DNA of 64,000 nt. Source: Quercus robur (taxonomy: Eukaryota > Streptophyta > Magnoliopsida > Fagales > Fagaceae). The translations under genes and the position numbers were made by a program. The notes under the pieces are model-generated. The model saw nothing but the letters and a program-made list of their open reading frames with translations, did not search any database and was not told where the DNA came from. The first letter of the stretch is position 1; the number at the start of each line of letters is the position of its first letter. Shown in pieces: positions 2,915 through 63,378 of the stretch. The stretch spans positions 8,221,001 through 8,285,000 of the forward strand of contig NC_065535.1 of NCBI RefSeq assembly GCF_932294415.1, in the 5' to 3' direction.

Positions 2915-3088
2915 TGCTAACGAGCGCCCTTAGGACACTCATTAATAATCCACTTTAGGAAAGTTTTAATACCACTTTTATGGGAAATAAAAAAAGCTGT
3001 CAAAATATTAATTACTTTTTTTTTCATTTTCCATAAAAACTTTCTTTATATGGATTATTAACCAGTGTCCTAAGGGCACTCATTAGCA
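2915..3088. mobile_element. MITE with ~37-bp terminal inverted repeats
   Basis: The left end starts TGCTAACGAGCGCCCTTAGG. The reverse complement of the right end starts TGCTAATGAGTGCCCTTAGG and continues to match through the AATAATCC region. The inner part is also partly palindromic (ACTTTTATGGGAAA against TTTTCCATAAAAACTT). TTT flanks both sides, but in this T-rich context it is weak as a target duplication. A decayed relative lies near 28212-28456. It has no coding capacity and the superfamily is not clear. Confidence 0.7.
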
Positions 3089-15307: not shown

Positions 15308-16363
15308 TTAAGAATCCAAAGCAAATGGAGTCTGCAAGAGATCATAAGGAGCCCAAAGAGCATCCAAAGGGCACGGTCTATTAGCGTCCAGTCGAGCCCA
15401 AGGCTTACCTTTTCCACTCCAATGCAAAAGACTCACAGGACCCGGATGCAAATCCCTACAAAGTCCACGAAAATTATCGCCACCAAGTCCATGTTGGTTC
15501 CATTTATGATCAACTGGAGCTATTTTCCCAGCAAACACAAGCAGAAACGGTGGAAGAGAACCCAACTGGTAAATCCTCATCCTCTTCTGCAACTCCATCC
15601 ATTCCTCGATTTTTTTCGTATAATCACCAGCTCTCCATCGATCAAGATCGATAACCATCACACCCGTGTTGAAATAGCACGGCTTTCGGTTCGCAAAAGT
15701 GAGTGACAAAGAAGGGTTGGACCAAAAAGTGAGAGTGAAGTAGGAAGTGAAATTTGCATTGCAGTACTCAGGAGCAGCGAGGACCGTGTCGTCGCCACCG
15801 AGCGGAGTAGCGGCGAGTTTCGCAATGTCGTCGACGAGTACGAGGTCGGAGTCGAGGTAAACGACTCGTCGTACACACGAAGGCAAGATGTTTGGCAAGT
15901 AGCTCCGAGCGTAGTTTAATGGACAGTCCAAAGCTGAGCGAATAGAGGTGGAGATGAGGCCCGACACGTGGGTGTCGTCAAAAGGGTAGATTTGGAACTT
16001 CAAGTAAGGAAAGGAGGTGGATAGGGTGGCGCGTAGGAGCGACGCGTTGGCGGTGGCGGTGGTGACAAAGTGGAAGATGTTGTTTTCTGGACACGAAGAG
16101 TGTTGAAGAACCGAGAGAATTGCAGCCATTGAACCTCGGATGTATTGGGTGTCTAGGGTCATTGCCACGTGGACTGCTCCATCATAGCAAATAACGTTGT
16201 TGTTGTTGTTCTTGTTTGTGTTTGTGTCGGTTATGGAGGGGCAATCTGGGGAGTTATAGAATTGAGGAGCTTCTTTGAATTGTTGAGAGAGAGTGAGAAT
16301 GGTGGCATGGGAGAGAAGAGAAAGTGAAAGGAAGAGAAAGGAAAAGAGTAATGGTTTAGGCAT
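15308..16363 (-). CDS. GATL1: Galacturonosyltransferase-like protein, GT8 family (GATL1/PARVUS type)
   Basis: This is a Golgi/ER-lumen glycosyltransferase of CAZy family GT8, the GATL subgroup that acts in xylan or pectin synthesis for cell walls. The 351-residue protein has an N-terminal hydrophobic signal (residues 1-20, [20 protein letters not shown]) in place of the long stem of true GAUTs. The metal/sugar-nucleotide motif DSD (171-173, in [12 protein letters not shown]), NQHGLGGDN (289-297) and HWSGKGKPW (314-322) are all intact. The length and the C-terminal TPFALDS match what I know of Arabidopsis PARVUS/GATL1. The gene is intronless, as GATL genes are. I chose the ATG at 16361-16363, which starts the signal peptide; the open frame continues upstream without an ATG. 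PARVUS itself is needed for the xylan reducing-end tetrasaccharide, so a wood-formation role is plausible. GATL2 is the main alternative. Confidence 0.92.
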
Positions 16364-16403
16364 AGTGAGAGATCTAAGGGGTTTGGGTGTGTGTGCGAGT
16401 GAG

Positions 16404-16413
16404 GTTATATAAA
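16404..16413 (-). promoter_or_regulatory. TATA-box candidate for the GATL gene
   Basis: On the minus strand the bases read TTTATATAAC, with the nearest edge about 40 bp before the ATG. If it is used, the 5' leader would be only about 10-15 nt. A more distant start that I cannot see is possible. Confidence 0.45.
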
Positions 16414-16720
16414 GGTTGAAAATATTGGACACGGTTTTGATTGAATTTTAAAATAAGAGAGAAAGGAATATAGCTGGATGGCTGGGCTAGCTGGAATGGA
16501 ATGAGTGCAATGCAGAGAGGCTGAGTCAAGATTTTACAAGGGGAAGTTTGGTAGAGTTCAGATTGGTCATTGTGTAGAAGAGATGGGTTTTGTACCTTTT
16601 TTATTACGGATTCCCTTAAGGTCCCACATCTCTTTCACAGGTACTTGTCACTTTTTTTTTTTTTTCTTTTTCTTTTTCTTGTAAAGTAAGAGGAAGAATA
16701 TTCAAAAATGAAAATGTAAG

Positions 16721-16767
<47 letters not shown>

Positions 16768-19345
16768 TTGCTTAAGAAAGAGTATGGTGACGTATAAATT
16801 GTCACCAACTTTTTTTACTGACTATGCCTTTTATTTTTATTTTAGGGTGTGGTAGGTTCCAATAGAGTTTGTGAAGGAGAATGCTAATTTTTCAGTAAAA
16901 AAAAAATTCAATGTCTTACCTAAATTGGTTGTTTGAAGAAAAAAAAAAATTAAAGATACACCCAATTTCACATGTAATTCCACAACGTAAATTCTAGGCA
17001 ATTTATGCCCACTGCTAATTATATATATCCACAATTTTTAATTGACCAAATCAACAAGTTATGAAATATGGTTGAAAATGGATGTGTTTATATCATTATT
17101 GACTTATGGAATTCGTAATTTTTTATTTAAGAAATGGAATTATTAACGAAAAGAAAAAAGAAAAAAAATTATAGTTTCACACTCTTTGATGTGAAATATT
17201 TCACACAATATCCAAATGTTTACGCTTAACATATGATATGAAAGAATGTGTATATAATATAAAATAATGTGACCATTATTGAATAGAAACGATCAATTTT
17301 CAAAGCTCAAATAAAAATGGTTTTGTGGTGAATTTGAGTTTGGACTAACTTTTTCCTTTTTGTTTGTTAGTTTATTTATTTGTCTACAATTTAAAACTAA
17401 AAAAAAAAAAAATACTAATGGGCAATGATTCTCTACCTTTTGACGATCCAATAATCCAAGGGTTGTCCAACTAAATTTTCCATTTATAGGAAAACGATGT
17501 ATTAAAGGGTGGTTCCTTGGAAATCAGAAAGAGTGCGATTCACATAAATGGGAGAGTGCTAGCACCCTTAAGCCCGTAAACAACAATCATGGGAGCAAAT
17601 CCCCCTAAACAAATCCAATTCCACTTTCACGCCCTTATTTTGCATGGAGAGAATCGTAGTCATGCTATGCCCATATATAATGTTATGATTGTAGTGTCTC
17701 ACATGTTATGATTTTTGGATATTCTCTCTTTACAAGTCGGTTTTTAAAGATAAACACTACCCATAACCATGGTTTTGAAACCTGAACCGTTCATTAAACT
17801 GTAAAAGAGAAAGGTTTAAGGTTTTTGAAGTCGAACCAAGGTTGAACCAGGATTGAACCGTGTTTGAATTGGGATCGAACCGTGATGATGTCATAATTAA
17901 TTTAATAATCAATTAAAACTTAAATATATATATATATATATATTAAATTTATAAAACTAGCAAAATTGACTAATATATGTATATATGTGAGGGAAATTTA
18001 ATGATTTTCAAGCATATATTTAATAATTAAATAAGAAAGTTAATAAAATAAAATAATAACCATGAAAACATTAAAATTTATGATTAATTTTTGAAGTAAA
18101 GTTGAATATCTTTGAAGGATTTTAATTATAATTTTTTTTTTATTCCTTGTAAGAGATGGATAATTTAATTAAGTAGAATAAAATTGTGTTAAGTTGTTTT
18201 TATAAAAAAAAAAAAAAAAAAAAAAATGCTAAGGGGTTGGACCGCACGGTTCTTGCCACCGGTTTTGCATGACCCGTGCGGTCCAACCCTAACTTTAGAG
18301 GTTCACGGAATTGCCACATATGCCCAGTTCTCTATGCTTAAAAAACTGGATTTCAATCCGGTTCCTGATTTTCCCAGTCCGACCTCCTGGTCAGGTCCGG
18401 GTTTGAAAATAGTGCCCATAAGTTTGTATCATATAAAAAAAAAAAAGTATATTAGCACAACACCGGTGTCACTCTACTCACTCTGATCCAAAACTGTGTG
18501 GATGAGCGATCCATTGTGATCCCTAGCATCAACAAGTACAATTATATTTTTATTAAAAAAAAATAATCCAATCGCCCATGCATTGAAGAATCTTCAAAGT
18601 TGAATCATTGGCTCATTGCCAAGTTCTTCCATGCCTTGGGCTTGACCACAGCTTTCGTTTTTCGAATGGATTGGAAAAATCCATATGGCATGGTTGTTGA
18701 TGCTTAACCGTCATATTATAATCTCTGTCATTTAGCAGTAGAAGTTTCATTTTTCATTTTCGATCATCTCTCATATATTGAAGTTGAACCATCGCACTCC
18801 AGGGAAAATGTATTCTTCAGCGACCAAACTCCAAAGTCTCTAAGACTTCCAAACAAGCAGAGCATTTAAAATAAAACAAAAAAGAACCATGCTTTATAAC
18901 CAAGCTTTACGCTTTTCTAAAGGTATGTGCCACCTTCTATACTGTAGGTGAAAAAACTTATGTCACATTAATTCCAGAAAGCATCCTGGAAAGCTCAGTT
19001 GTATTGAATTATGTGGTAGGAGTTGCTATTAATTAGTTGTAGAAAATTACTCCTATAATGCTTTGTAAGCAAACTAACTGGAATGCTTGGGCATGTTTTA
19101 GTTTGGGGATATAAAATTACAAATAAAGAAGCATCAGTCCTCTCCATGTGGCTTGATTTAGATTTTATTTTATTTAGTGAGTTAGCTGAATTGATAATTT
19201 TTTTTATTATCGAATAAGATTAAATCCAACCCACGTAAAAAAGAAATCGTAAAAAAACATGTTTGAGAGAGAAAGATGTGTAAGCAATATTACATCATCC
19301 AATAACTTATTATTGAATTTATATTTTGAAAAATTTTCACATTTA
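16414..19345. other. GATL upstream region and intergenic DNA
   Basis: It holds a GA microsatellite (16725-16760) ending in a G run, TA runs and a poly(A) at about 18204-18226. Between about 17770 and 18413 many GGTTGAACC/AACCGG-type motifs occur in both orientations. They look like the ends of a decayed DNA transposon (left end TTTTGAAACCTGAACCG; right end, reverse-complemented, TTTTCAAACCCGGACC), but the borders are not secure. No gene is supported. Confidence 0.4.
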
Positions 19346-20844: not shown

Positions 20845-22927
20845 ATGGCGGAGGAGCTAGAGGAGTTATGGAAAAAACTAACATTTACTGAGGAGGAAGA
20901 TGTAGGGATAGTACTAGATAGCAGTAGCATTAAAGCTTCAAAAGAAGTCGAAAAATGTTGTGCTGTGATGAAGATACTGACCCAAAGATGCATCAGTTTA
21001 GATGTGTTAAGGAAAAATATGAGAATGTTGTGGAAGCCAAATAAAGGGGTCCAAATTTTTAAGATAGATGAGGATCTCTTCTTGGTGGAGTTCGGGGATG
21101 GGAAAGATAAAAAGAGAGTGATTGAGATGTGTCCTTGGAGCTATGAGAAACAGTTAGTTCTCATCCAAGACTTTGAAGGTGAACTTACTCCAAAGGTGCA
21201 TGCTCAAAAATGTGTGAAAATACAAGAACTATTTAGACCCCCAAATTAAAATTACGGCTCGATAGATTTTACTCTAACTTATACTAAGTGCGGAAAAGAG
21301 TAAATGCAAGCGTATAAACAAACAAGCTACTCTAACCCATATTCATAATAACACAGTAGTAAAATGAAAGGTAAAAGAGTAGGGAAGAGAGATGCAAACA
21401 CAAAAACAACACAGCGATGTGTTATCGAAGAAGAAACCGAAGTCCTCGACGTAAAATCTCTTCGCCGCCCTCCAAGCAATAATTGATCCACTAGATAATC
21501 AGTTGGGATACATGGGTTAACAAGAGACCCACCAAGCCTAATCTACCCGCTATACCTAAGCCCTCCAAGCTTCTACTCCAATAAGGCTTCTCGAAACCAT
21601 GTCTTGTCTAGCTTTCCGGATCCCGCAATCCATCCGATTGCATTTACTAAGCCTCACTGGCTTCTTTTAGCAATTCTCCAAAGCTTCCCAAGCTCCAAAA
21701 CACTCTCTACACTCTGAAAAGGTGTGGGTTGTGTTTGAGTACAAATCTCCTCTCAAGGTATGACAATGTGAGAGGGAAGGAGAAGAGGCAACAAGGATTT
21801 CACACTAAGGATGAGTAGCTCTCTCTCTAAAAGATAGGGGTGTGTGTTGTAGAAAACCTATCTACGGTTTTTCTCTTTGAATGGCCTTTTTACATTTGTG
21901 GGTAATGAGGGTATATAGAGTATAGGTGAAAGGTAGGGAAGTCACACTTAAAATCCTCTAGGCAAAATGTTTTGCGACTGTCTCTCGAGAAGGCCTTACC
22001 CGCGAGACACTCGCGAAATTCTCTAGGCTGGCATGACTCTTCAGTTTCCAGCATGTGCTTCTCACGTGGCTCTGTCGCGGATTAGCTTCTAGCGAGACGC
22101 TCGCGAAATCCACTGATTCTTCATTTTATGCACGATTCTTCACCAACTTAATACTAAACCTAATACAATAAAATCCCACAAAATACAAGGAAATAAATTA
22201 AAGCAATTATAACACTTTTTGTCATGGAATAAAGCCAATATAAAATATAGTTGTAAATCACAACTTTACAAAAGGAGATTGATACAAGGTGGGCGTCGTT
22301 CTGGATCCAGATCTATAATCTCCCTTTGAAGTGTAGGACGAAGGAAACTAGGTGGGCCATTGGCTCAAGCTTAAGGCTGGTTATGGATGTTGATGTACCA
22401 AAGTCTGGTGTTTAATGGGGTAAGTGGGTGGGAAAGATAGGGGAACGAAAGCTTCTTTGGGAAATCAGGACAAAGTACAGATTATTAACCAAGCTGAACC
22501 ATTAGTTGGTATGCAGTGGGAGACAGCTCATCTTCAAGAAGTGGACAAAGTGCATGTGGGTGCTTTGGCACCAACTATAAAGAATGAAGCAAAAGTGGGG
22601 GGCCCAACTAACGTGGGCTTAGATTTGGGCCCTCTTGCTATGTGCTACGTTAAAGAGAAAGGGTGGATAGCTGAAATGTTAGGCCCATCGAGTAAACATT
22701 GGAAATGGCTAACAAGGGAAGTAAAGTCTAAACCAGAAAGTAAAGGAAAAAACCCAATTAAAGTAAAGAGAGAGGGTCCAACTCCACTCCAGGAGTTAGA
22801 CCCCAACATCAAAGATCTTAAGCGGAGAAAAGGTAAAGATGATATGCAGAACACAGTGGGGAAGAAGCATTTGGATGGCGGAGTGTTATTGCATGGAACT
22901 GTCGGGGATTGGGGTCTTCCTCGGTAG
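20845..22927 (+). pseudogene. LINE ORF1 (DUF4283), split by an LTR and lacking the zinc knuckle
   Basis: The frame opens at ATG 20845 (MAEELEELWKKLTF) and gives a DUF4283 domain, the RNA-binding part of plant L1 ORF1. After DFEGELTPK it enters the inserted LTR at 21197. The domain resumes in frame beyond the insert, at about 22276, with ASFWIQIYNLPLK and ends soon after VPKSGV. The expected CCHC zinc knuckle is absent. Instead the sequence passes to a charged linker (22424 onward, rich in K, E and P) of the kind that precedes ORF2. An internal deletion at about 22390-22430 explains this best. Confidence 0.8.
21197..22270. mobile_element. Solo LTR (1,074 bp) inserted in LINE ORF1
   Basis: It begins TGCATGCTC and ends CAACTTTACA, the TG...CA ends of an LTR. 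Both sides carry AAAGG (21192-21196 and 22271-22275). Taking out the insert and one AAAGG restores the ORF1 frame across the junction, which independently proves the borders. It contains two copies of GCGAGAC(A/G)CTCGCGAAAT about 90 bp apart. No coding region. Orientation and superfamily are not evident. Confidence 0.88.
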
Positions 22928-25900
22928 TCCGAACACTCATCGATGAGGTGAGAGCGAAAGATCCACTCCTGGTCTTCTTATCGGACACAAAGGCCAGAGT
23001 AAGCAAAATTAAAGGCATTCAGAATAAGTTAGATTTTACTCAAGGTATTACGGTTCCCGGTGACGGCAGAAGTGGCGGACTGGCCATGCTTTGGAGAAAG
23101 GGTACGGATGTACGTTTTAAGAGTTGTTCCAACTCTCATATAGATATGAAGGTATATGAAAATCCATCGACTTCACCTTGGCGTGTGACTGGTTTTTATG
23201 GACAACCAGATGTGACGAAGTGAAGCATCTCATGGGAATTATTGGAAATGCTAAAGGTTCAAAGCCACTTGTCATGAATTGTTTTTGGTGATTTCAACGA
23301 AATCTCTCACCCAGATGAGAAGCTTGGGGGTCTGGACAGAGACACAAGACAGATGAGGGAATTTAGAGAGTGCTTGAACAGGTGTGGCCTCTTCGACTTG
23401 GGTTTTGTGGGTAAAAGATACACATGGTGCAACAGAAGGTTTGGGGAGCAAAGAACAAAGCTTAGACTTGATCGAATGGTGGTAAACGAAAGTTGGTGTG
23501 AGAAGTTTCCTGAAGCTATGGTGCACCACTACTTAATGTCAATTTCGGAACATTGTCTACTAACATTATATCTCTATCGTCGTCAGCCACAAAAACCAAT
23601 AAGGAAGAGGTTTTTCTTCGAGGCAATGTGGATTAGGGAAGAAGGTTGTAGGGAGGTGATTGAAAAGGCTTGGGACCCGATGAGGAGAGATCTGGAGTTT
23701 AGGCTCACGAATAGATTGAGAAGCTGTAAAGAATGTTTGTAGAGATGGAATAGGAGGGTGTTTGGGAATGTTAATAAAATCTTGAGACAGAAATAGGGTT
23801 AGCTTCAGCAACTGGAAGTCTTTGATGGTGTGCTTGATAAGGCAGTGGAAATCAAAACTCTGAAGAAGGTAATTAATGAGACCCTTACTAGGGAGGAAAT
23901 CATGTGGAAACAAAGGTCAAGGGCTCTATGGTTAGAGTCAGGAGATCGCAATACAAAGTTTTTTTACGCCACGGCTAGACAAAGGCGTAGAAAAAATAAG
24001 ATTGGTGGATTGCTGAATGATCAACGTGTTTGGGTTGAAGACCAGGAAGGTATTGACAGCATTATTTTGGATTATTTTTCTACCATTTTCAAGACTGACA
24101 ACCCTTTAAGTTTTGACAAGAGCTTGAGTGCAATTTCTACTCGGGTTTCCAAGGAGATGAATGGGGACCTGTTAGCAGTGTTTAAGGTAGAGGAAGTTCG
24201 TGTCACTCTCCAACAAATGCATCCCACAAAAGCCCCTAGTCCTGATGATATGTCTCCTATTTTCTTCCAAAAGTACTGGGAAATTGTTGGTCTTGATGTT
24301 ATAGAGTGTGTGTTGTCTGCTTTAAATTCGAGTGTACTGCCATGAGGTATTAATGAAACTTATATTTGCCTTATACCGAAGGTCCATTCTCCCCAGAAAA
24401 TTACTGAGTTTAGGCCAATAAGCCTCTGCAACGTGGTATACAAAATTATCTCTAAAGTGCTTGCAAACAGGCTTAATGGTGTCCTTACGGAGGTGATTGA
24501 TGAGTCTCAAAGTGCATTTGTGCCTGGTAAATCGATTACAGACAATGTGCTGGTTGCTTACGAAACAATGCATTTTATAGACCAACGAAAGAAGGGAAAA
24601 GAAGCCCTTATGGTGGTGAAGCTTGATATGAGCAAGGCGTATGATAGGGTCGAGTGGTCTTATCTTGAAGCCATAATAAGGAGAATGGGATTTCACGAGA
24701 AATGGATTGCTCTAATGATGATGTGTGTGAGTTCGATTTCCTATTCAGTTTTGATAAGTGGAGAACCTAAAGGTAACATATTCCCTTCAAGGGGCCTTCG
24801 ACAAGGGGACCCCATTTCACTGTATCTATTCTTATTGTGTGCGGAAGGTTTGTCGGCAATGTTGGAAAAAAAAAAAAGGAGAGTAAAGGAAACTTAAAAG
24901 GAGTTGCGGTGAGTAGGGGAGCTCTAAGAGTTTCGCATCTTCTATTTGCGGATGACAGCATCATCTTTTATAGGGCTTTTGTTGAGGATTGTGATAGGGT
25001 GATCAAGGTTTTAGAGGATTACGAAGATGACTCAGGGCAGAAACTAAATAAGGAGAAAACTTCCTTATTTTTCAGCAAGAATACAAAGGAAGAGGTTTAG
25101 CTTCATGTGAAATAGAAATTCAGGGCCAAAATCATTAAACACCACGAGAAGTACTTAGGGCTTCCTCCAATTGTAGGGAGAGGGAAGAGGAAAGCGTTTA
25201 ATCGCATTAAAGACCAAGTTGGGAGGAAAATAGCAGGGTGGAAAGGTAAACTCCTGTCTAATGCAGGTAGAGAAATCCTCATAAAAGCCATTGCACAAGC
25301 TACACTAACATACACAATGAGCGTGTTCAAACTTCTGAAAATGTTATGTAAGGAATTGAACTCCATGATGAGTAATTTCTGGTGTGGGCAAAAAGAAAAA
25401 GAGAGGAAATTAGCATGGGTTTTCATGGGAGAAGCTTTGCTTGCCGAAGAATGATGGGGGCATGGGGTTTAGGGACCTCAAGGCTTTCAACTTGGCTCTC
25501 CTTGCTAAACAAGGTTGGAGACAACAACAGAATCCCAACTTGCTGGTTCATAAAGTCTATAAAGCGAAATATTTCACGAAGAGCTCTTTTGGTCAAGCTC
25601 AACTTGGTAAAAGACCCCCGTACGCTTGGAGGAGTATTATGGCTGCCAAGGGGATTATTGAGAGGGGTACGAGGTGATGTATAGGTAATGGACGTAGTGT
25701 CCATATCTGGGAGGATTGATGGCTTCCCAAGCCAAATTCATTTAGAGTGGACAGCCCAAGAAGGCCCCAAGGAGAGGCAGAAATGGTGGCAAATCTAATG
25801 GACCCTAAGATAAGAAGGTGGAATGTGGACAAGGTGAGGAGAACCTTCCTCCCCTATGAAGCTGAATCAATTTTGAGCATCCCGGTGGGCCCTCGATTGC

Positions 25901-26929
25901 CGGAAGACTCTATCATCTGGAGTTGGACTAACAATAGTAGATTTTCCATCAGAAGCGCATATGGCGTAGCACAAAAGTGGCTGAAGGAATATAGTAAGAA
26001 GCCCGAGTTTGGAAGTTGTTCCGATAATTCCAAAATGAAAGCCATTTGGAAGGTGGTCTGGCAGTTGCAATGTCCTAGTAAAATCAAACATTTTTTGTGG
26101 TGCGCTTGTAAGAACATTCTTCCAACAAAGAATTAGCTTATTACCAGAGGGGTGAGTCAGGAGGATGGTTGCAATCTGTGTAGCTGTAGTGAGACGTCTG
26201 GGCATATTTTGTGGGGCTATAGTTACGCTAAGAAGGTGTGGAGTGATACGAAAATTTAGCTACCCCTGGTTCCTGATTCAATGCGAGAGTTCATTGATGT
26301 AATGTGGGAGATTTTGGAAGTTTGACCTACTATTGCTTGGGTGGTGTTTGTGGTAACGGCGTGGAGTTTGTGAAATAACAGAAACAATGTAACTCAAGAT
26401 GGATAGTGTAAAGGGCAAATGGTGCTTATCAAGGCGGTGGTGGATTATGTTAAGGAAATCAAGCAAGTGAAACTTCCACGGTTAAGGATGCCCCCCCCCC
26501 CCCTCCCCTCCCACGAGCCCATGGCTACCTCCACATAAGGGATGGTATAAAGTCAACGCTGATGGTACTATGTTCAGCAAGGTGGGGTGGTGTGGAATTG
26601 GTGTGGTTATAAGGAACGAGAGGGACCTTCTTATAGGGTCTATGAGTAAAAAGGTTGAATTGCCACTGGGGCCATTAGAAGTTGAAGCCAGAGCAGTGGA
26701 AAAGGGTGTTCGCCTCACGTGGGATCTCGACCTTAAGAAGATTGTCCTCAAAAGTGACTCACAGTCTGTGGTCAATGCCTTGCGTGTGCTCAACATGTCT
26801 CCAAGCAGCATCCTAAAAGTGGTTGAAGGTACAAGGTTGGAGCTTAGTTGCTTCGATGAGTCTGGAATCTCCCACACCCATAGGAGTGGAAACTTTGCGG
26901 CTCATGTTATATGCCAAGTTGGTTTCTAA
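22876..26929 (+). pseudogene. LINE ORF2: endonuclease, reverse transcriptase, RNase H (broken)
   Basis: The endonuclease starts IAWNCRGLG (22888 onward), with a displaced GDFNEI at about 23286. Reverse transcriptase landmarks are FRPISLCNVVYK (24412), QSAFVPGKSITDN, KLDMSKAYDRVEW (24619), RGLRQGDP (24790) and LLFADD (24941). A Cys/His region CNLCSCSETSGHILW (26170) and an RNase H domain (NADGT, EVEARA, KSDSQS, RSGNFAAH; 26540-26929) follow. Damage includes TGA at 23221, TAG at 23740 and 23793, TGA at 24343, a frameshift in an A run near 24865-24876, a stop at 25098 and TAG at 26134. It cannot make a working protein. Confidence 0.88.
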
Positions 26930-38875: not shown

Positions 38876-39693
38876 TAAGAGCATTAGCATTAGTTCTTAC
38901 AAAACTTTTCGCCTATTTTAGCATAAAAACCTACTTTCTATATTTTACAGTTATTTTTCAAAACACTTCACATCAGATTATCTATTTTACACTACATTTT
39001 ATATTACCTTCTTTGAATGAATATTGGCAATAGAGTTCAGCTAAACCCACTGCCATGCTTTTGATCTTGTCATTGTCTAGTGGTGATTGGTGGGATTGTT
39101 TCTTTCCTTCAATTAATCAAGCAAAAATGGCTATTACTGATGAGAACAATCCTACCTTGAACAAACCCACAACTTTTCAGGGTAAACCCATTTGATTATT
39201 TGCTACAAAGTCGCATATTTTGCTGATTTAACAATTAACATGGTTGTAAAACACCAATATTTGACATGGGTTTTTCTATTTTGAATGATATATAGGAGGA
39301 GGGTTAGGGATGGGCAATAGAAAGTTCATGCATATAAGATAGGGCGGTGGGGCATGTCGGTGAGATGGTGAAGGTGACCGACTATTGGAAAGCCTGGTGA
39401 TCATGGTGGTTTTAGTGATTGTACTCACCTGCTTTTGCCATTTTTGTAAGCAGATAAGTTAAGAAGAAGAAAGAGGAAGAAGAGAGTGAGAGGGGAGAGA
39501 GAATACATCGGGTAGTGTAAAAAATATATTAAAATATTAAATACACATCTACAGTAACCGTGTATATTTACACGGTTACTGTAGCGTGTAAATATACACA
39601 CATATTAAAAGTCTAATGCGGGACTGATTTAAGCCATATTGTATAAACTATTGCACTTTTTCTATTATGCACTCACTAATCTGAGTGCCCTTA
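38876..39693. mobile_element. Possible DNA-transposon remnant with GCATTAG ends
   Basis: The left end TAAGAGCATTAGCATTAG and the reverse complement of the right end, TAAGGGCACTCAGATTAG, agree at 13 of 18 positions. A perfect hairpin lies inside (39551-39582). There is no firm target duplication, so the borders are tentative. Confidence 0.35.
39551..39582. repeat. Perfect 14-bp-stem hairpin
   Basis: ACAGTAACCGTGTA pairs exactly with TACACGGTTACTGT across a four-base TATT loop. A further GTGTAAATATACAC copy follows directly. Confidence 0.8.
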
Positions 39694-42645: not shown

Positions 42646-43344
42646 CTATTGCCAAAGAAGAGCAAGAAGAACACAAAATGCAATAAGCAAAAGCAGCCTC
42701 TTCAGATTATTATCCTGATGCCTTTGACCTGTACGCTGATGGAATCCATGCACATGGCCACCATGAAATGAATTAGAAAACCCATAAGGGAAACCAGCCG
42801 GGGTACCATACATAGTAGCATCAGGAAACCCATGTAACTGCAGGTTAAACAGAGATGGAATGAGACCACCAAAAGCCGCAGAGAAAGTGAAATTCCCAAA
42901 CCTAGCACTTGCCATTGGTGCAAAACCTCCCAACCCACCAGTTAATCCAAACCCGTGGCCGTGGTGGGCAAAATGATTTGGTTCGGGTGGAGGAGCTGTC
43001 TCGGGTCTCTGCCCAGCTGGACGATTAGGAATGTCAACACCAGGAATAGACTTTGATCTCGGATCAGTCGATGTCTTTCCCCTACCATACAATGGGACCA
43101 ACTTCTCCTCCTCAACAAGGGCCTTGCAAACCGGGCATTCCTGGGCTTGCGAGTGACCGTGGAGCCATTTGTAAAGGCAAGGCCAGCAGAAAAGATGTCC
43201 ACATAAAGTCACAATTGGGTCTTGAGCTAAGTCAAGGCAAATATTGCATTCAAAATTACCAGCATCACTGTTATTATTGTTATTGCTTGAAAAAGAAGGG
43301 TTTTGTGAAGGTCTGCTTGTTGATTCACCAAACCCACTTGCCAT
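42646..43344 (-). CDS. RING-HC E3 ubiquitin ligase with C-terminal membrane anchor (RMA/RNF5 type)
   Basis: A 232-residue protein. A C3HC4 RING finger lies near the N-terminus, with zinc ligands C33, C36, C48, H50, C53, C56, C70 and C73 (ECNICLDLAQDPIV ... ECPVCKALV), all present. A disordered Pro/Gly/His-rich middle follows (97-210), then a single hydrophobic C-terminal segment (about 216-231, LLLLIAFCVLLALLWQ). This layout is that of RMA1 and animal RNF5/RNF185, ER-membrane ligases that ubiquitinate membrane proteins. The N-terminal MASGFGESTSRP recalls the Arabidopsis At1g19310 type. I start at ATG 43342-43344; the frame stays open upstream but has no earlier ATG. The coding part has no intron. 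The substrate is unknown. The 3'UTR probably extends toward 42240. Confidence 0.9.
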   Translation of the reverse strand: MASGFGESTSRPSQNPSFSSNNNNNSDAGNFECNICLDLAQDPIVTLCGHLFCWPCLYKWLHGHSQAQECPVCKALVEEEKLVPLYGRGKTSTDPRSKSIPGVDIPNRPAGQRPETAPPPEPNHFAHHGHGFGLTGGLGGFAPMASARFGNFTFSAAFGGLIPSLFNLQLHGFPDATMYGTPAGFPYGFSNSFHGGHVHGFHQRTGQRHQDNNLKRLLLLIAFCVLLALLWQ

Positions 43345-43436
43345 AATCTCTTTTGGTCTTTTTGCCCCCAAATCTAAAATCCCTATATCAACCACATTAT
43401 ATAACCCTAAATCAACAATTTTTCTTAGAATAACAG

Positions 43437-43625
43437 CTGCAATATAATTCAATTTTACAACAAAAACTTAAGAAAAATCCAAATAAATCTAGGTTTGAAC
43501 CTGGAAAACAGAGAAACCCCTAGGACAAAATTAAAGCCACAGATCAGGTAAATAATATTACAATTGCATAAATCAAGAAACACAATTATTGTAAAAGATT
43601 AAGAGGTTGAGAGATTATCACTGAC
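43437..43625 (-). other. Probable 5'UTR intron of the RING gene
   Basis: On the minus strand a donor CAAAG|GTCAGTGATA (GT at 43625-43624) and an acceptor ATATTGCAG|CTG (AG at 43438-43437) bound a 189-base AT-rich interval. Splicing would place the start ATG about 92 nt into the second exon. Read from sequence only. Confidence 0.5.
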
Positions 43626-45208: not shown

Positions 45209-48079
45209 AATTATAATGCAGCAGAGATTAAACTTGCACTAAAGCAGATGTACCCACTGAAGGCTCCAGGTCCGGATGGCATGCCTCCTCTTTTCTTCCA
45301 GCAATTTTGGACGATATGTGGAGAGATGGTCACAACAACGGTATTGGATTTCTTTAATCATGGTGTTTCTCCTTCTAATTTCAATAAAACTCATATTGTT
45401 CTGATCTCAAAAGTCAAGACACCCAAGAAGGTAACTGATTATAGGCCTATTAGTTTATACAATGTGGTTTATAAAATTGCTTCAAAGGCTATAGCTAATA
45501 GGTTAAAGAAAATACTACCTTCCATTATTAATGATACCCAAAGTGCTTTTGTGCATGGTAGATTAATTACTGATAATGTTCTTATAACTTTTGAAACTAT
45601 GCACCATATTAGCCATAACAAAGGGGGAAATTATTGGGGGGATGGCTCTAAATCTTGATATGAGTAAGGCATACAACAATGTGAAGTGGTTTTGTCTGGA
45701 TAAAATTATGGAAAAATTGGGTTTTGATGTAAAGTGGAGGAGTCTTATCATGAAGTGTGTCACAACTATTTCATACTCTATTAAGATTAATGGGGTGCCT
45801 AGGGGTAATTTTTTTCCATCTAGGGGGATCCGTCAAAGAGACCCTTTATCACCTTATCTCTTTATCTTATGAACAGAGGGCCTATCATCTCTTATTAAAT
45901 CCTCAGTGGCGAATGATGTTATGAAGGGTGTTGCTGTGTGTCGTGGAGGCCCAAAATTATCCTACCTTTTCTTTGCAGATGATAGCCTGATATTTTGCAA
46001 GGCTTCTTTGGCAAAATGTGAGGCTCTCCAACGAATCTTGAAAGTGTATGAGGATGCTTCAGGCCAGTAGTTAAACCGGGCTAAGACATCCTTGTTTTTC
46101 AACCGTAACACACCAAATGCAATCCAAGAGGAGATATAGCAAAGATTTGGAGCCCAAGTAATAAAACAACATGAGAAATATTTGGGGTTACCTTCTTTGG
46201 TGGGGAAAAACAAAAGGAATACTTTCAACGAGATTAAAGAGAAGCTCCGTAAAAAGTTGGTGGGATGGAAGGAAAAAATGTTGCCTAAAGCTGGTAAAGA
46301 GGTATTAATCAAGGTGGTGGCCCAAGCGATACCAACATACACCATGAGATGCTTTAAATTGTCAAATGCACTTTGTGATGAGTTGATAAGCATGATAAGG
46401 AATTTTTGGTGAGGCCAAAAGGAGGAAGCAAGGAAAATAGCTTGGCTTAGTTGGGAGAAAATGTGTGAGCCAAAATGTAATGGTGTCATGGGCTTCAAGC
46501 AACTTAAACAGTTTAATTTGGCTCTTCTAGCCAAACAAGGTTGGAGGCGCCAAACCAACCAAAATTCCTTGGTGTATCAGGTCCTCAAGGTGAGGTATTT
46601 TCCACAATGTGAGTTCATTGAGGCTTCCCTTGGTAATAACCCTTCTTTTGACTGGCATAGCATCATGTCTGCTCAAAACTTGGATAGAGAGGGGGTATGG
46701 TGGAGAGTAGGCAATGAAAGCAACATCCATATATGGGGAGATAAATGGCTGCCTTCACCCACCACATACAAAGTTGCTTCACCCAGACAATTTCTACACC
46801 ACGATACAAGGGTAAGTGAACTAATTGACCAAACCTCAGCAAGTTGGAAGGTAAACATTTTGGATGCTCTGTTTGTTCCCTACGAAGCTGATGTGATCAA
46901 AGGGATTCTGATAAGCTCTCGCCTTCCAATAGACAAACTGACTTGGGCAAAAACTCTGAATGGCAAGTTTAGTGTTAAAATTGACTACGGTGTGGCCATG
47001 CGACTCTCCAAACATGTCGACCAAGGTGCAAGCTCAAATCAAAGCCAAATGCGTTAGTTTTGGAAGAATATATGGGACCTACCTCTGCCACACAAAGTTC
47101 ACCACTTTGCATGGCGAGCATGCAGAGATATCCTCCCAACTAAGGTCAATCTCATGCGCAGAAAGTGGACAACGACTAGCTCTGTGAGGAATGCAGTTTG
47201 GAGGCTGAAACAACAGGCCATATGTTTTGGACGTGCCCAAGAGCTCGAGAGGTATGGGCTTGTTCAAAAGTTGTTGTGCTGTTAAACCAAGAATGGGTGC
47301 AATCGTTCCAAGACTTACTGTGGAACATGTTGACTGTGGAATGAAGCAACGTCGACAAGGTAGCAAAGGTTGTCAATATCGCATAGGCCATGTGGCACAA
47401 TCGAAATGAGGTTCGGCATGGAGGGAAACGAAGGAGTGGGTTGGAATTGGTATGCTGGGCCTCTCAGTACATGGAGGCATATAAGGTAGCAACTGAGAAT
47501 ATGGTTTGCAAAGCAACGATGGCTGAGGGAGTGAGGTCGTGGATTCCATGTCCAGAAAATGTTTTCAAAATTAATGTCAACGGCGCAGTCTTTACGGATA
47601 AAAAAGCAGTGGGTGTTGGCGTGATCATAAGAGACAAAAAGGGTAGGCTTGAAGCGGCAATGAGCAAGAATATACATGCATGTTCCATTGGGCACTGTAG
47701 AGGCAGAGGATATGGCGTTTGAACAAGGTCTGATGTTTGCAAGGGATATAGGTATTCACAACTTTATTATTGAAGGCAACTCGCTCATTATTCATCATGC
47801 TTTATGTGACTCATCCAATCCATCGTCCTCTGTGGCTTCTGTTGTACAAGGAATGCAGGAAATGTGTAGGGAATTCTATGGGGTAATGTTTTCTCACGTT
47901 AGGAGATAGGGCAACCAACTAGCCCATTTACTAGCCAAACATGCATGTGACATTGTTGATTTTACTACCTAGATTCAAGAGACTCCTTATTTTCTAGAGC
48001 AAGCTCTTATCCATGATGTATCAGTTTCATCCAGTTCTTAATAAAATTTCAGTTTTCTCAACCAAAAAAAAAAAAAAAA
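45209..48079 (+). mobile_element. 5'-truncated L1-type LINE with target duplication
   Basis: It begins inside the reverse transcriptase and ends in a poly(A) tail (48064-48079). The flanks AAAACTCTAATGRTACA (45192-45208 and about 48076-48092) are a 17-bp target duplication with one mismatch. The A's at the 3' junction overlap the tail. Target-primed reverse transcription that stopped early explains the 2.9-kb length. Confidence 0.88.
45220..47985 (+). pseudogene. LINE ORF2 fragment: reverse transcriptase to RNase H (broken)
   Basis: Visible landmarks are YPLKAPGPDGMPPLFF (45249), DYRPISLYNVVYK, QSAFVHGRLITDN, LDMSKAYNNVKW (45652), RGIRQRDPLSPYLF and FFADDSLIF (45970). A region ending in an RNase H domain (about 47565-47900) follows. 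The endonuclease is absent through truncation. Damage includes a frameshift in the G run near 45637-45642, TGA at about 45871, TAG near 46067 and 47056, and a frameshift within RNase H near 47690. The first RNase H acidic residue is Asn here (INVNGA). It differs clearly from the LINE at 20690-27058, so it is a separate lineage. Confidence 0.85.
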
Positions 48080-52163: not shown

Positions 52164-52422
52164 GGCAATTGTTAAGGAGGAGAAGGGGGATAATAATTTG
52201 TGATATTTGTTGAAAGTTCAAAAAGATTTGGTTTTCAAGGGTAATTTGCATTTAGTTTCAGTAATATTTCACAAATTAAATATAATTTGTAGAAATCTGT
52301 ACAACCGATTGATGAAATAGAATAAAAAAGAATTTTTTCAGTAACATTTAATATATAGTGCAATAGGTTAAGAAGTTCCTTACTTTTATGTTTATATGGT
52401 GTGGGTACCTAAGGCATGCTTG

Positions 52423-52516
52423 GCAACGTCCTAGGCATGTTTTGCAACGTCCTCGGCATGTTTTGCAACGTCCTCGGCATGCTTAACAACGTCCTTGGCC
52501 GACCTTGGCATGCTTT
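52423..52516. repeat. 21-bp minisatellite in the palindrome arm
   Basis: Three 21-bp units and a longer fourth, each starting CAACGTCCT and containing GGCATG or GGCCGACC. Inverted copies occur at about 52715-52815, and again in the second palindrome. Confidence 0.8.
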
Positions 52517-52527
52517 GCAACCTAGGC

Positions 52528-52591
52528 GTCCCACATCGAAAGAAAACCCCCCCACTTTCTGCCTTATAAGCTGTGAAGCAAAAGGAGTAGT
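52528..52591 (+). promoter_or_regulatory. snRNA-type promoter module 1 (USE + TATA)
   Basis: GTCCCACATCG (52528-52538) is an exact match to the plant USE consensus RTCCCACATCG. A 25-bp gap, TTATAAG (52564-52570) and 21 bp then lead to a G at 52592. As I recall the Arabidopsis U6-26 promoter, this is close to its layout, including the AGTAGTG around the start. The short USE-TATA gap is the Pol III class; Pol II U-snRNA genes have about 10 bp more. Confidence 0.6.
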
Positions 52592-52646
52592 GTACCACCA
52601 AGCATCTCTGTGATCACAAGAGACTTGGTGGTACACTACTCCTTTT
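52592..52646 (+). ncRNA. Predicted small hairpin RNA, Pol III-type (candidate)
   Basis: From the predicted start G, GTACCACCAAG (52592-52602) pairs perfectly with CTTGGTGGTAC (52624-52634), with a 21-base loop that has its own TCTC/GAGA pairing. A TTTT (52643-52646) follows, the simplest Pol III stop. The minus strand gives nearly the same RNA, from G at 52634 to TTTT at 52583-52580. Expression is not shown by sequence. Confidence 0.3.
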
Positions 52647-52698
52647 GCTTCACAGCTTATAAGGCAGAAAGTGGGTGGGTTTTCTTTCGATGTGGGAC
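52635..52698 (-). promoter_or_regulatory. snRNA-type promoter module 2, convergent with module 1
   Basis: On the minus strand: USE at 52698-52688, 25-bp gap, TTATAAG at 52662-52656, 21 bp, then G at 52634. All spacings equal those of module 1. Confidence 0.6.
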
Positions 52699-52933
52699 GC
52701 CTAGGTTGCAAAGCATGCCAAGGTCGGCCATGGACGTTGTTAAGCATGCCGAGGACGTTGCAAAGCATGCCGAGAACGGCCGAGAACATTGCAAGCATGC
52801 CTAGGACGTTGCCAAGCATGCCTTAGGTACCCACAATAAAAGGGCCCTTTTTGGTGTGTGTTCCTTGGATGGACGAATCTTTGGGCCAAGGGCTTTTTTT
52901 GCCTTGTAGCCTTTTTACACCGCACCCTTTGGA

Positions 52934-52997
52934 ATCCCACATCAAAAGAAAACCCTTCCACTTTGTGCCTTATAAGCTGTGAAGCAAAGGGAGTGGT
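52934..52997 (+). promoter_or_regulatory. snRNA-type promoter module 3 (one USE mismatch)
   Basis: ATCCCACATCA matches the USE at 10 of 11 positions, then 25 bp, TTATAAG (52970-52976), 21 bp and G (52998). It is a single half-module with no facing partner before the next palindrome. Confidence 0.5.
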
Positions 52998-53139
52998 GTA
53001 CCACCAAGGATTACAGGCATGCTTGCAACGTCCTCGGCCGTCCTCGGCATGCTTTGTAACGTCCTCGGCATGCTTTGCAACATCCTCGGCATGCTTAACA
53101 ACGTCCTTGGCCGACCTTGGCATGCTTTGCAACCTAGGC

Positions 53140-53206
53140 GTCCCACATCGAAAGAAACCCCCCCCCCCACTTTCTGCCTTATAAGCTGTGAAGTAAAGGG
53201 AGTAGT
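53140..53206 (+). promoter_or_regulatory. snRNA-type promoter module 4 (28-bp spacing)
   Basis: Exact USE (53140-53150) and TTATAAG (53179-53185). The gap is 28 bp because a C run is longer here. 21 bp then G at 53207. The facing hairpin has only TTT, so a first-position Pol III stop is missing. Confidence 0.5.
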
Positions 53207-53249
53207 GTACCACCAAGCATCTCTGTGATCACAAGAGACTTGGTGGTAC

Positions 53250-53313
53250 ACTACTCCCTTTGCTTCACAGCTTATAAGGCAGAAAGTTGAGGGGTTTTCT
53301 TTCGATGTGGGAC
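53250..53313 (-). promoter_or_regulatory. snRNA-type promoter module 5, convergent with module 4
   Basis: On the minus strand: exact USE (53313-53303), 25-bp gap, TTATAAG (53277-53271), 21 bp, then G at 53249. Confidence 0.55.
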
Positions 53314-53435
53314 GCCTAGGTTGCAAAGCATGCCAAGGTCGGCCGAGGACGTTGTTAAGTATGCTGAGGACGTTGCAAAGTATGCCGAGGACGACCGAGG
53401 ACGTTGCAAGCATGCCTTAGGTACCCACATATGGT

Positions 53436-55045
53436 ATTTGTTAAATGTTCATTTTTAACTAATTAGCAAGTGGTGTTTTAAATATGTGTCACAATAATGA
53501 AAACAATATTATCAAAATTGCAAGAAAAACCATTTTAATACCTTCAAATGTATTATTATTATTTTTTTTTTTTTTTGAGATAACAAAATCAAATGATCAT
53601 TAAACTTTCACAAATGTACATTTTTCGTTATTTATTTGACATTGTATTATAGAACATAATTACTCCAAAATATAAAAGTCTTGGTCGAACTAATATTCTA
53701 TGTGTTTAATAATCCAAGCTTAACATTAATAGTACCACTACAATTGAACATTCCCATGTGTAAATATGGGTTACATGCTAGTTACTTATAAACTCAAGAT
53801 CCAAATAGTGAACATCTAATGTGAGACTAACTATATGCTTGCACAACCTGTACTCAAACAATTCAATTCAATCAAATTCTCACAAATGTAGGGTATCACA
53901 ATTGAAACTCCCCCCACATGTTTTTGATTTGCAGATGAACTCCCACCCTTCTTAAATAACAAAATTGTTTGTTTTAATCATAGACACCCAACCAGAATTT
54001 GAGTGAATTATTGAGATTACCATGCGGATGAAGAAGGTTAAGGCAGCTTGTGATAATAACCTCACCTTTCATCATTGTTATCCGATCTCTTGTTCACTCA
54101 ACTACCTCCACAAGTTATGTAATGTTGATCTGGCCCTTTCCCAAGGATAAAGTGATTCCTATAAACTCCACATTCATAATTGACACCTTAATTAAGGCTC
54201 AAATTATCTACTAGCATGTTTCTAACTTGAGCTCACACGTATTTACTGAACATGATGGATGAGTTTGAGAAGTTGGTATATTGGCCCAATCATGATGCAC
54301 AAGTCTTGAAGTATTCCAAAACTAGTAATGTACTATAATGTATTCTCTATTCGCTTCACCAAGTATGATGAGCTAATCAGCAAATAAGAGGTGAGAATTT
54401 GGAATTCTCTTTTTTGAGCTTATTGCTTAATCTAGAGTTCAACTCTTTGGAGTATTTTTGAAAGCAGATCCCCCCCATTAATATGAATAAAAAACAACAT
54501 AGTAAAAAGGTTATCTGGTCTAAACCTCTTTGCCAATGTTAAAAACCATAAATGTCACTCATCGTTGTGATCCATTGGAAAACGGAAAACCCATTATGGA
54601 ACCATCCAATCCAAGGCAACAAAAATCTCTTTTCTTTTGCTTAATGTAAATGATTTTTTTATTAACTCAATTTTAGCATGCTAAGCATTTTTTTTTTTTC
54701 CTGTGCACATAGCACACGTTGTCGATTATATATATGGCACACGCTTAAATGGGTCCCGAACTCATTGAATCTTTGTCTAGTTGTCCTTTTAGACCGACGT
54801 GGTCTCTTTTGTCCTTTTTTACATTCCCACTTACAACTTCACTATTAAAAATTTAAAAAAAAAAAAAAACTTGAGTTCCAAGCCTCAAAGCTATATATCA
54901 TCTTTGTGATTGTGATTACTTCCCTCCAAGTTGTTTTATTTTTCAATTTATAATCCGCTGACGCAAACATATTTATTCCTTTTCAAACCAGTTAGCTGAG
55001 CTCTCTCTTTTCTCTCAACTCTACCCCATACACAAACACAACTTA
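53436..55045. other. Intergenic DNA upstream of the ELO-like gene
   Basis: No supported gene. Around 53990-54620 the composition is more balanced than its surroundings and may be an old element or gene remnant, but no domain is readable on either strand. Confidence 0.4.
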
Positions 55046-55151: not shown

Positions 55152-56039
55152 ATGGGGCTAACGTTGGTACAGAACATAACATATTGGTTATCAGAGCACC
55201 CATCAATCGTGAACTTCCGCTGGAGTCCAACCCAATCGTGGGGCTCCACGTGGTCATTCGTCATTACAGCAATCTCCTCCTACGTCGTACTCGCCACCAC
55301 TCTCAACCTAGTGCTAATCAGACGCCGCCGTCCGCTGCCACTCGGCCCAATCCCGGCCGTCCACAGCCTCGCCATGGCCTTGATCTCCGCCCTCATTTTC
55401 ACCGGCATTCTCCTCTCCGCGGCGGCGGAGATCCGAGACACGCGCTGGTTCTGGCGGCGGACGAGGACGACGACGCCGTTTCAGTGGCTCCTCTGCTTCC
55501 CGCTGGGCACGCGCCCCAGCGGGCGCGTGTTCTTCTGGTCCTACATTTTCTACCTCTCGCGTTTCCTCCACCTCTTCCGCACATTCTTCGCTATCCTCCG
55601 TCGACGGAAACTCACTTTCTTTCGTCTCTTCAACCACTCCATCCTAATCTTCATGAGCTTCCTCTGGCTCGAGTTTTCGCAATCGTTTCAAGTTCTTGCG
55701 ATTCTGCTGACGACTTTGCTGTACTCCGTGGTTTACGGGTACCGTTTCTGGACCGCGATTGGGCTGCCTAGCGCGTGCTTTCCATTCGTCGTCAACTGCC
55801 AGGTCGTTTTGCTTGGCTGCAACTTGGTTTGCCATTTTGGGGTTTTCCTATTGCACTTCCTGAGAGGCGGGTGTAACGGCATGGGCGCGTGGGGGTTCAA
55901 TTCGGTTCTCAACGGAGCGATTCTGTTGCTGTTCTTGAGGTTCTATGTCAAGATGTATTTGACGAGGAACAAATCAACGCTCGAGGTAGCGCGTGAAGAT
56001 GACGCTTCCTCGATGAAACTCAAAGATAAGGACACCTGA
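55152..56039 (+). CDS. ELO-type fatty-acid elongase-like membrane protein (HOS3 type)
   Basis: A 295-residue multi-pass membrane protein of the GNS1/SUR4 (ELO) family; yeast and animal members condense malonyl-CoA with long acyl-CoA in the ER. Hydrophobic segments lie at about 33-55, 70-91, 128-148, 162-175, 182-197, 208-236 and 250-268, with a charged C-terminal tail ending KLKDKDT. The opening YWLSEHPSIVNFRW and AAEIRDTRWFWRR recall Arabidopsis HOS3 (At4g36830). Canonical ELO motifs are changed: HxxHH is RLFNH (158-162), KxxExxDT is RFLHLFRT (137-144), and NxxxHxxMYxYY is not recognisable near 185-197. It may not be a classical condensing enzyme; HOS3 in Arabidopsis is linked to osmotic-stress/ABA and sphingolipid traits. 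The gene is intronless, with high GC at 55300-55560. Start: first ATG of the frame, within a normal leader. Confidence 0.88.
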   Translation: MGLTLVQNITYWLSEHPSIVNFRWSPTQSWGSTWSFVITAISSYVVLATTLNLVLIRRRRPLPLGPIPAVHSLAMALISALIFTGILLSAAAEIRDTRWFWRRTRTTTPFQWLLCFPLGTRPSGRVFFWSYIFYLSRFLHLFRTFFAILRRRKLTFFRLFNHSILIFMSFLWLEFSQSFQVLAILLTTLLYSVVYGYRFWTAIGLPSACFPFVVNCQVVLLGCNLVCHFGVFLLHFLRGGCNGMGAWGFNSVLNGAILLLFLRFYVKMYLTRNKSTLEVAREDDASSMKLKDKDT

Positions 56040-61386: not shown

Positions 61387-63378
61387 ATGGAAGTTTACGG
61401 GCCGCTCAAATCTGATATAAATAAATTAAAGCACCGCCCTTTGACTCCTATTAGGACTTTAAGGGGTATTACTTGTTTACTGGTGTATTTTTCCACTGCC
61501 TTCATGTTTGTAGTGTATTTTACACCCGTGGCTGTTGTTATGTTGCGGCTTGTCAGCATACGTTGCAGTAGGAAAGTAACATCCTTCATCTTTGGTATGT
61601 GGCTTGCTATGTGGCCATCTCTATTTGAAAAAATAAACAGGACTAAAGTGGTTTTTTCGGGAGACATTGTTCCAGCAGGGGAGCGTGTTTTGCTTATTGC
61701 CAATCACAGAACTGAGGTTGATTGGATGTACTTGTGGAATCTTGCATTGCGGAAGGGGCGTCTGGGCTACATCAAGTATATCCTTAAGAGCAGCTTGATG
61801 AAATTACCTATTTTTGGTTGGGGATTTCACATCTTGGAGTTTATTCCTGTGGAGAGGAAGTGGGAAACTGATGAACCTGTTATGCGCAATATGCTTTCAA
61901 CATTTACGAATCCTCGAGATCCATTATGGCTCGCTGTTTTTCCCGAAGGAACTGATTTTACGTACGACCTCATTATCTCTTTTCATATTCTATTAAATTC
62001 CTTGTGCATGAATCTTATTTTATAGGAAAAGATTAATATAATTAAGTTCAGCATGTGTCTTTTTTGACCTTATTAATCTTAAGTTACCTCATTTTGGCTA
62101 GCAATTACAGATCTTGACACATAGTAAGTGATGCATGCAGTCCTTTTCATATATACTATGCATCTTTCCTTATATGCTGTCCACATATTGTTTTGTTCTA
62201 GAACACATTTTGAACCCATGAAATTTTATTTGGATGTAAGACTTATGTTTACTCCATGTAAGACATTAACTTTTCCTTGATTTCTTATACAGTGAAGACA
62301 AATGCAAAAAGAGTAAAAAATTTGCAGCTGAAGCTGGACTTCCTGTGCTGGAGAATGTCCTACTCCCCAAGACAAGGGGCTTTTGTGCTTGCTTAGATGC
62401 TCTGCAGGGCTCCTTGGATGCAGGTTCTTTTACAAAATTATGCTCGTCTTCCATTGCATAATTTTTTTTTCCACTTTCAAGGGAGGGGTTTGCATTGGCA
62501 ATTGTTTAGTAAAATTAATTGCATATCTCTGGTAGGGATGAGAATTTGAGTGTGCTTATACTGTGAGCTGCGCATGTGGTAATGCCAACTCTTTCCCAAA
62601 GATGACGCTTTGCAGCCTTCTCTGCCTTAATAATTGCAATTCCTGATTCCTTTCGCATTACCATTGGGACTGTAGATTAGTGTTGTGAAACTTACAAAGA
62701 AATGGAAGAAAAATGACTGCTTTCAGTAGAATCTATTGACAACGTCTTGATGATTGAAACTGCAGGTGGTGAACTCAGTTGAAATGTTTGCTAGTTTAGT
62801 TACATCTAATCTTGATAGCTGTTTGTTTGTTACTTGTAATTCTTATAATAGGAGTTGTACTTGTTTATCATTTTCATCTCAAATAGCTTGTTTGATGCTT
62901 AATAACCTTTCATGTTTATTAAACTGCAGTTTATGATGTGACCATTGCATACAAGCATCAATGCCCTTCTTTTTTGGACAATGCATTTGGTGTGGATCCT
63001 TCAGAAGTTCACATTCATATTCGACGTTTCCCTGTTGAGAAGATTCCTGCATCTGATAGTGAGGCTGCTGATTGGTTAATGGATGCCTTCCAGCTCAAGG
63101 ACCAGTTACTCTCCGATTTTAAGGCTCAAGGCCATTTCCCCAACCAAGGAACAGAAGAAGAACTTTCTACGCTGAAGTGCTTGGTAAATTTTGCTGTTGT
63201 AATTTCTTTGACAGTTTATTTTACTTATCTTACCTTTTTTTCGTCCATTTGGTTTAAACTATACGTAGGTTTATCATGTGCATACCTTTCATTTGCTACA
63301 TATTTCAAAATTCAACCTTGGCCAGTTTTAGGCTTTCTTAGAGCAATGTTCTATAGCAAAAAGACAAGAAGTGCGTAG
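61387..63378 (+). CDS. LPAT5: 1-acyl-sn-glycerol-3-phosphate acyltransferase (LPAT4/LPAT5 clade)
   Basis: Transfers an acyl group from acyl-CoA to lysophosphatidic acid, making phosphatidic acid at the ER. Three coding exons: 61387-61961, 62293-62423 and 62930-63378 (introns of 331 and 506 bp, GT...AG). They give 384 residues, close to the 375-378 of Arabidopsis LPAT4/5. There is a hydrophobic segment at 28-57, then the catalytic NHRTEVD (106-112; H107, D112) and FPEGT (185-189). The frame crosses both junctions cleanly: [17 protein letters not shown] and [14 protein letters not shown]. Two hydrophobic stretches near the C-terminus (about 315-355) are probable membrane segments. The start ATG is preceded by an acceptor-like CAG at about 61370. 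Retention of intron 1 would add about 20 foreign residues and stop at 62025. AATAAA at 63404-63409 is a candidate poly(A) signal. LPAT4 versus LPAT5 is not resolved. Confidence 0.92.

Follow-up and report, generated by a model that had tools for sequence, protein, structure and literature searches.

To our knowledge, the plant mobile elements known to carry RNA polymerase III (Pol III) promoters use internal promoters of the tRNA or 5S type; Cassandra, a plant long terminal repeat (LTR) retrotransposon, has an internal 5S-type Pol III promoter derived from a host gene. Plant type 3 Pol III promoters, such as those of the U6 and U3 small nuclear RNA (snRNA) genes and of the telomerase RNA gene (AtTR/AtR8, PMC6765143), are external and share an upstream sequence element (USE), a TATA box at about −28, and a short gap between the two. 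The published U6 and U3 layouts place the USE at about −70 and the TATA box at −28 to −30 (PMC9845283, PMC10379810), or at −60 and −30, respectively (PMC11991013). In plant snRNA genes transcribed by Pol III, the USE lies one helical turn closer to the TATA box than in those transcribed by RNA polymerase II (Pol II), in which the distance is four turns. Here, we analyze a stretch of 64,000 nucleotides of the Quercus robur genome (the window; assembly GCF_932294415.1, contig NC_065535.1, positions 8,221,001 to 8,285,000), which contains a composite foldback element with snRNA-type promoter motifs. In the best reading of this locus, which we consider about as likely to be right as wrong, the element is probably mobile and one snRNA-type promoter cassette has been copied five times within it. 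Cassandra and the oak element would then both carry a Pol III-type promoter, but that of Cassandra is internal, of the 5S type, and resides in an LTR element. Among the matches listed in a search of the open-access literature, no title or abstract opening described an snRNA-type promoter in a foldback element.

A preliminary description of the window had reported four exact matches and one 10/11 match to the plant USE (RTCCCACATCG), each followed by the word TTATAAG, and had taken a gap of about 25 bp as the Pol III-type figure. All five motifs were found where it had placed them, and the spacing that it gave was reproduced (Table 1). TTATAAG follows the USE after 25, 25, 25, 28, and 25 bp in modules 1 to 5, the larger gap of module 4 being due to a longer run of C, and a G is found 21 bp past TTATAAG in 5/5 modules. 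When positions are counted from this G, an assumed transcription start, the first base of the USE is at −64 in 4/5 modules and at −67 in module 4, while the first T of TTATAAG is at −28 in every module. With the 25-bp gap, the centers of the USE and the TATA box are 34 bp, or ~3.2 helical turns, apart. The layout fits the published positions of plant Pol III promoters, and to this extent the Pol III-type reading given in the preliminary description stands; the idea that a foldback family spreads such promoters was unsupported as stated. Unlike plant type 3 Pol III genes, the element has no recognizable snRNA downstream of its modules, the predicted product is a hairpin derived from the element's own palindrome, and the promoters form head-to-head pairs within what is probably a mobile element.

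Table 1. Features of the composite foldback element and its flanks, in positions of the window.
Feature	Position	Strand	Components or evidence
Module 1	52528..52592	+	USE 52528-52538, TTATAAG 52564-52570, G 52592
Module 2	52634..52698	-	USE 52698-52688, TTATAAG 52662-52656, G 52634
Module 3 (USE 10/11), in linker	52934..52998	+	USE 52934-52944, TTATAAG 52970-52976, G 52998
Module 4 (gap 28)	53140..53207	+	USE 53140-53150, TTATAAG 53179-53185, G 53207
Module 5	53249..53313	-	USE 53313-53303, TTATAAG 53277-53271, G 53249
Whole composite foldback element, 1028 bp	52401..53428	.	Target-site duplication; G+C contrast
Left target-site duplication ATATGGT	52394..52400	.	Perfect 7-bp match with 53429-53435
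Right target-site duplication ATATGGT	53429..53435	.	Perfect 7-bp match with 52394-52400
Terminal inverted repeat GTGGGTACCTAAGGCATGC, left outer copy	52401..52419	+	Repeat scan of window
GTGGGTACCTAAGGCATGC, inner end of palindrome 1	52816..52834	-	Repeat scan of window
GTGGGTACCTAAGGCATGC, right outer copy	53410..53428	-	Repeat scan of window
Palindrome 1, predicted end-to-end single hairpin	52401..52834	.	Inverted repeats I1, I13; DNA fold
Linker, 183 bp, containing module 3 and its distinct upstream flank	52835..53017	+	Boundaries taken from alignments
Palindrome 2, without outer end of left arm	53018..53428	.	Inverted repeats I4, I6, I9; arm alignment
Arm subrepeats, 21-bp unit, 4.2 copies	52412..52499	+	Tandem-repeat scan
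Arm subrepeats, 21-bp unit, 3.5 copies	53039..53111	+	Tandem-repeat scan
Predicted 55-nt hairpin RNA, module 1 to first TTTT	52592..52646	+	Predicted from sequence
Predicted 55-nt RNA, module 2 to first TTTT	52580..52634	-	Predicted; fold computed for nearby 52586-52650 (-)

The frequency with which such modules arise by chance was estimated in several ways. At one mismatch or fewer, the USE had seven matches in the window, whereas 100 shuffles gave 0.57 on average, and the two matches that fall outside the element (16621 and 30203) had no TATA-like word within 45 bp. A USE search at up to two mismatches in TCCCACATCG (the last 100 bases of each strand excluded) yielded 26 sites. TTATAA, TATAAA, or TATATA was present within 45 bp of 6/26 sites, namely, the five modules and a site at 16978 that combines a weak USE (two mismatches) with a TATA word at a longer gap of 32–34 bp. 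Under a first-order Markov model, a USE followed by a TATA word at a gap of 23–27 is expected 4.3e-4 times per 64 kb at the composition of the window and 1.0e-4 times at that of the element, figures reckoned after the fact, the motif having been noticed first. Simulated sequence (6 Mb per composition) contained two and four USEs and zero modules.

The five promoter modules of the preliminary description are present, but they are not independent: alignments show that they are homologous copies of one module, and five independent promoters were therefore rejected. It follows that their number, their common spacing, and the 21 bp to the G amount to one observation, not five. The edge of the shared sequence is sharp. 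In modules 1 and 3, identity is 0–4/10 in each of six 10-bp bins upstream of the USE, and 8–10/10 in seven 10-bp bins from the first USE base onward; up to +11, where ACCACCAAG ends, the two share 68/75 letters, and few past that point. The first USE letter itself differs between the two modules (G vs. A), and the consensus allows both. A USE lying outside the conserved core had been considered in the preliminary description as a sign of chance sequence; the USE in fact sits within the core and marks its edge. The unit common to both modules thus begins at the USE and stops shortly after the assumed transcription start, which is how a captured promoter cassette should look. This evidence is only suggestive, because it is a single case and an edge near the USE would arise by luck, by our own estimate, in perhaps 1 in 10 to 1 in 20 cases.

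The element ends given in the preliminary description proved exact. A perfect 7-bp duplication, ATATGGT, flanks both of them, and when starts from 52391 to 52411 were combined with ends from 53418 to 53439, no longer perfect duplication of the flanks was found. Such a duplication marks an insertion. The same ends are also supported by a terminal inverted repeat of 19 bp, GTGGGTACCTAAGGCATGC, which occurs three times in the window at up to three mismatches, each time exactly and inside the element, the rest of the window containing none. The G+C content of the element is 51.2%, compared with 33.7% in the window. Separate insertion of either palindrome was rejected: no duplication of 4 bp or more flanks palindrome 1 by itself, and the best one for palindrome 2 was 4 bp (CCAC, at 1/220 end pairs tried), which chance allows. 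Neither the element nor its linker had a blastn match (E up to 1) in the rest of the window, and no second element was found there. Exact-pattern scans of viral and other genome contigs and blastn against plasmids and phages, collections made up of sequences other than plant genomes and therefore uninformative when they yield nothing, gave one locus in a viral contig, which we regard as a chance hit of a loosely defined pattern. Two shorter inverted repeats of ~50 bp, at 39542–39590 and 2915–3088, have no blastn similarity to the element. Three open reading frames (ORFs) of at least 120 aa (136–158 aa, minus strand, 52409–53413) run through the palindromes and look like by-products of the repeats; none of them had a Pfam match up to E 1 and no transposase was found among them, which fits a non-autonomous element.

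The foldback structure reported earlier was likewise supported and consists of two near-perfect palindromes and a linker of 183 bp. The DNA of palindrome 1 is predicted to fold at −262.8 kcal/mol, compared with a mean of −63.3 in 100 shuffles (z −45), its arms being 94% complementary across 171 nt. The arms contain 21-bp subrepeats as well as an inner core in which the USE/TATA module lies, and modules 1 and 2 face each other across the center of the palindrome. Palindrome 2 is a copy of palindrome 1 minus the outer end of the left arm. In the four-arm alignment, seven sites are common to left with left and right with right arms between the palindromes; four of them are asymmetric sites near the loop, and three lie in the outer repeats, whose alignment is uncertain. 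The grouping by side of the four asymmetric sites suggests that the palindrome probably arose once and was then duplicated, with perhaps slight exchange between the arms.

Long modular terminal inverted repeats, which are present here, are a trait of Mutator-type foldback elements. MuTAnT of Medicago, a member of the Mutator group (PMC4486113), shares with the oak element long modular inverted repeats that form hairpins as well as non-autonomous copies, and FARE of Arabidopsis belongs, by way of a citation in the same paper, to the same Mutator-group foldback class. Unlike MuTAnT, the oak element has ends that differ from the GGGGTTTGCTAGAACA mask and carries USE/TATA modules in its arms. A 9-bp target-site duplication is typical of Mutator-like elements (MULEs; PMC4486113), and none was found here, the longest perfect one being 7 bp. 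Flanking duplications of 7 bp, together with long, internally repetitive terminal inverted repeats, are found in another element of the foldback type, Galileo of Drosophila mojavensis (PMC3573991); Galileo and Tetris (D. virilis) are animal elements, and no relation to the oak element is implied.

A mechanism can be proposed that would account for this arrangement. A non-autonomous plant foldback-type DNA transposon may have captured one snRNA-type promoter, comprising a USE and a TATA box at a short Pol III-type gap. An inverted duplication would have set two copies of the promoter head to head across the palindrome center, and a later duplication of the palindrome would have doubled the copies, with a fifth copy coming to lie in the linker next to a different upstream flank. 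The modules might then be used by SNAPc, the complex that binds the USE in plants, and by Pol III, with predicted starts near 52592 (+) and 52634 (−), and the transcripts would fold at once into hairpins ending at a run of four T (T4). The predicted RNA of module 1 gave a fold with a z of −5.3, and 0/200 shuffles were as stable; the 3′ half of the predicted 301-nt product of module 3 (52998–53298), which would extend through the left arm of palindrome 2 into its right arm, gave one long hairpin (z −14, 100 shuffles). Hairpins of this kind could be by-products, or small RNAs derived from them could act on the element family. To move, the element would depend on a transposase supplied by another source. 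Plant transposons that form hairpins are known to give rise to small RNAs (PMC3086885), and the palindromic short transposons treated in that paper resemble the oak element in giving hairpin small RNAs once transcribed. They differ in being transcribed by Pol II (and Pol IV/V), the main text of the paper being without the words Pol III.

Several observations weigh against the view that the modules are copies of a working Pol III promoter. The USE of module 3 lacks its last G, and the TATA word of the element is TTATAAG rather than GTTTATA as in soybean U6 (PMC4448504). Columns of the USE and TATA box are as variable among the modules as those of the spacer and the downstream sequence (2/18 vs. 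8/57, Fisher p 0.55), and within this element there is no signal of purifying selection on the USE and TATA box. An Rfam scan of the window brought no family to its cut-off. The predicted terminators are also weak or distant: counted from the G, the first T4 comes at 55 nt in modules 1 and 2, at 92 nt in module 4, and at 301 nt in modules 3 and 5, and the first run of at least five T ends 250–926 nt away. For U6 genes, 4–5 T are named at the 3′ end (PMC11991013), and T4 is at the short end of this range. The stable folds do not speak for function either, because any inward promoter in a palindrome makes a hairpin. As to the order of events, one core site (AAAAGG/AAAGGG) is grouped within each palindrome, contrary to a simple history.

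Some of these observations would be explained equally well if the core were a Pol II promoter fragment, taken, for example, from the LTR of a retrotransposon or the promoter of a gene, that happens to contain a USE-like word and was captured without Pol III function. TTATAAG would suit Pol II just as well, the terminators are weak or far, and CCCACATYG words occur near the TATA box in some plant LTRs. A link of the motif with retrotransposons or LTRs was, however, not found among the matches listed from the open-access literature, which counts weakly against such an origin; in one paper that has the motif, the words on retrotransposons concern Tnt1 mutagenesis (PMC4448504), and the main text of one paper on plant LTR motifs is without the word CCCACA. 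We regard a Pol II origin of the core as somewhat unlikely. It is also conceivable that the transposon is inert and that an accidental USE/TATA match was carried along in its arms, since the five modules all derive from a single one and the USE and TATA box are without extra conservation. Two results make this quite unlikely: one such module is expected by chance only ~4e-4 times per 64 kb, and the homology edge of the linker copy coincides with the first USE base.

Other RNA-gene identities were also considered. We rejected the possibility that the element contains a known snRNA, snoRNA, or tRNA. The only snoRNA match was sR34 at 17.2 bits (cut-off 40), and ARAGORN predicted no tRNA anywhere in the window. 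The head of a tRNA-type SINE resembles a tRNA and has A and B boxes, which ARAGORN does not detect when they occur alone. At looser settings, Rfam returned 17 matches, of which MIR475 was the best by E-value (52.7 bits, E 6.4e-9, gathering score 70). Low E-values of this kind for microRNA (miRNA) models aligned to the palindromes are what would be expected if the locus were not a transposon but an miRNA-like hairpin small-RNA gene, with the palindrome as its product and the modules as its promoter. In contrast, all matches are below the gathering score of their family in one Rfam scan (17/17, MIR475 included) and in another (9/9), the miRNA models fit mostly by pairing in 4/9 alignments inspected, and the 7-bp duplication marks an insertion. 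Because several unrelated miRNA families fit at once, by pairing, the matches reflect the near-perfect hairpin. An miRNA gene was rejected on these grounds, and a small-RNA gene of this type appears very improbable.

A more far-reaching version of the captured-cassette reading is that an snRNA-type Pol III promoter has been domesticated by a plant foldback transposon family, in which it forms head-to-head pairs across the palindrome center, each copy being a natural short-hairpin-RNA gene on both strands. We consider this unlikely. If it were true, the family would distribute U6-like hairpin promoters, ready for use, across the genome, and the small RNAs could act on the family itself or on genes beside its insertions. 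A DNA transposon with an external snRNA-type promoter would give such promoters a new route of spread, and since a promoter inside a palindrome would yield hairpin RNAs by default, the arrangement offers a testable natural origin for small-RNA loci.

The remainder of the window contains probable retrotransposon remains and ordinary genes or exons. RVT_1 reverse-transcriptase domains were detected in short ORFs at 24433–24897 and 45248–45658 (+). The neighboring ORFs at 20845–26136 and 45248–47057 look like remains of non-LTR retrotransposons, while that at 22424–22927 matched nothing. Ordinary genes or exons encode a glycosyltransferase of family 8 (15308–16432, −), a RING finger protein (42646–43452, −), an acyltransferase (61387–62025, +), and an ELO-type elongase (55152–56039, +), the start of which lies ~1.7 kb beyond the right end of the element.
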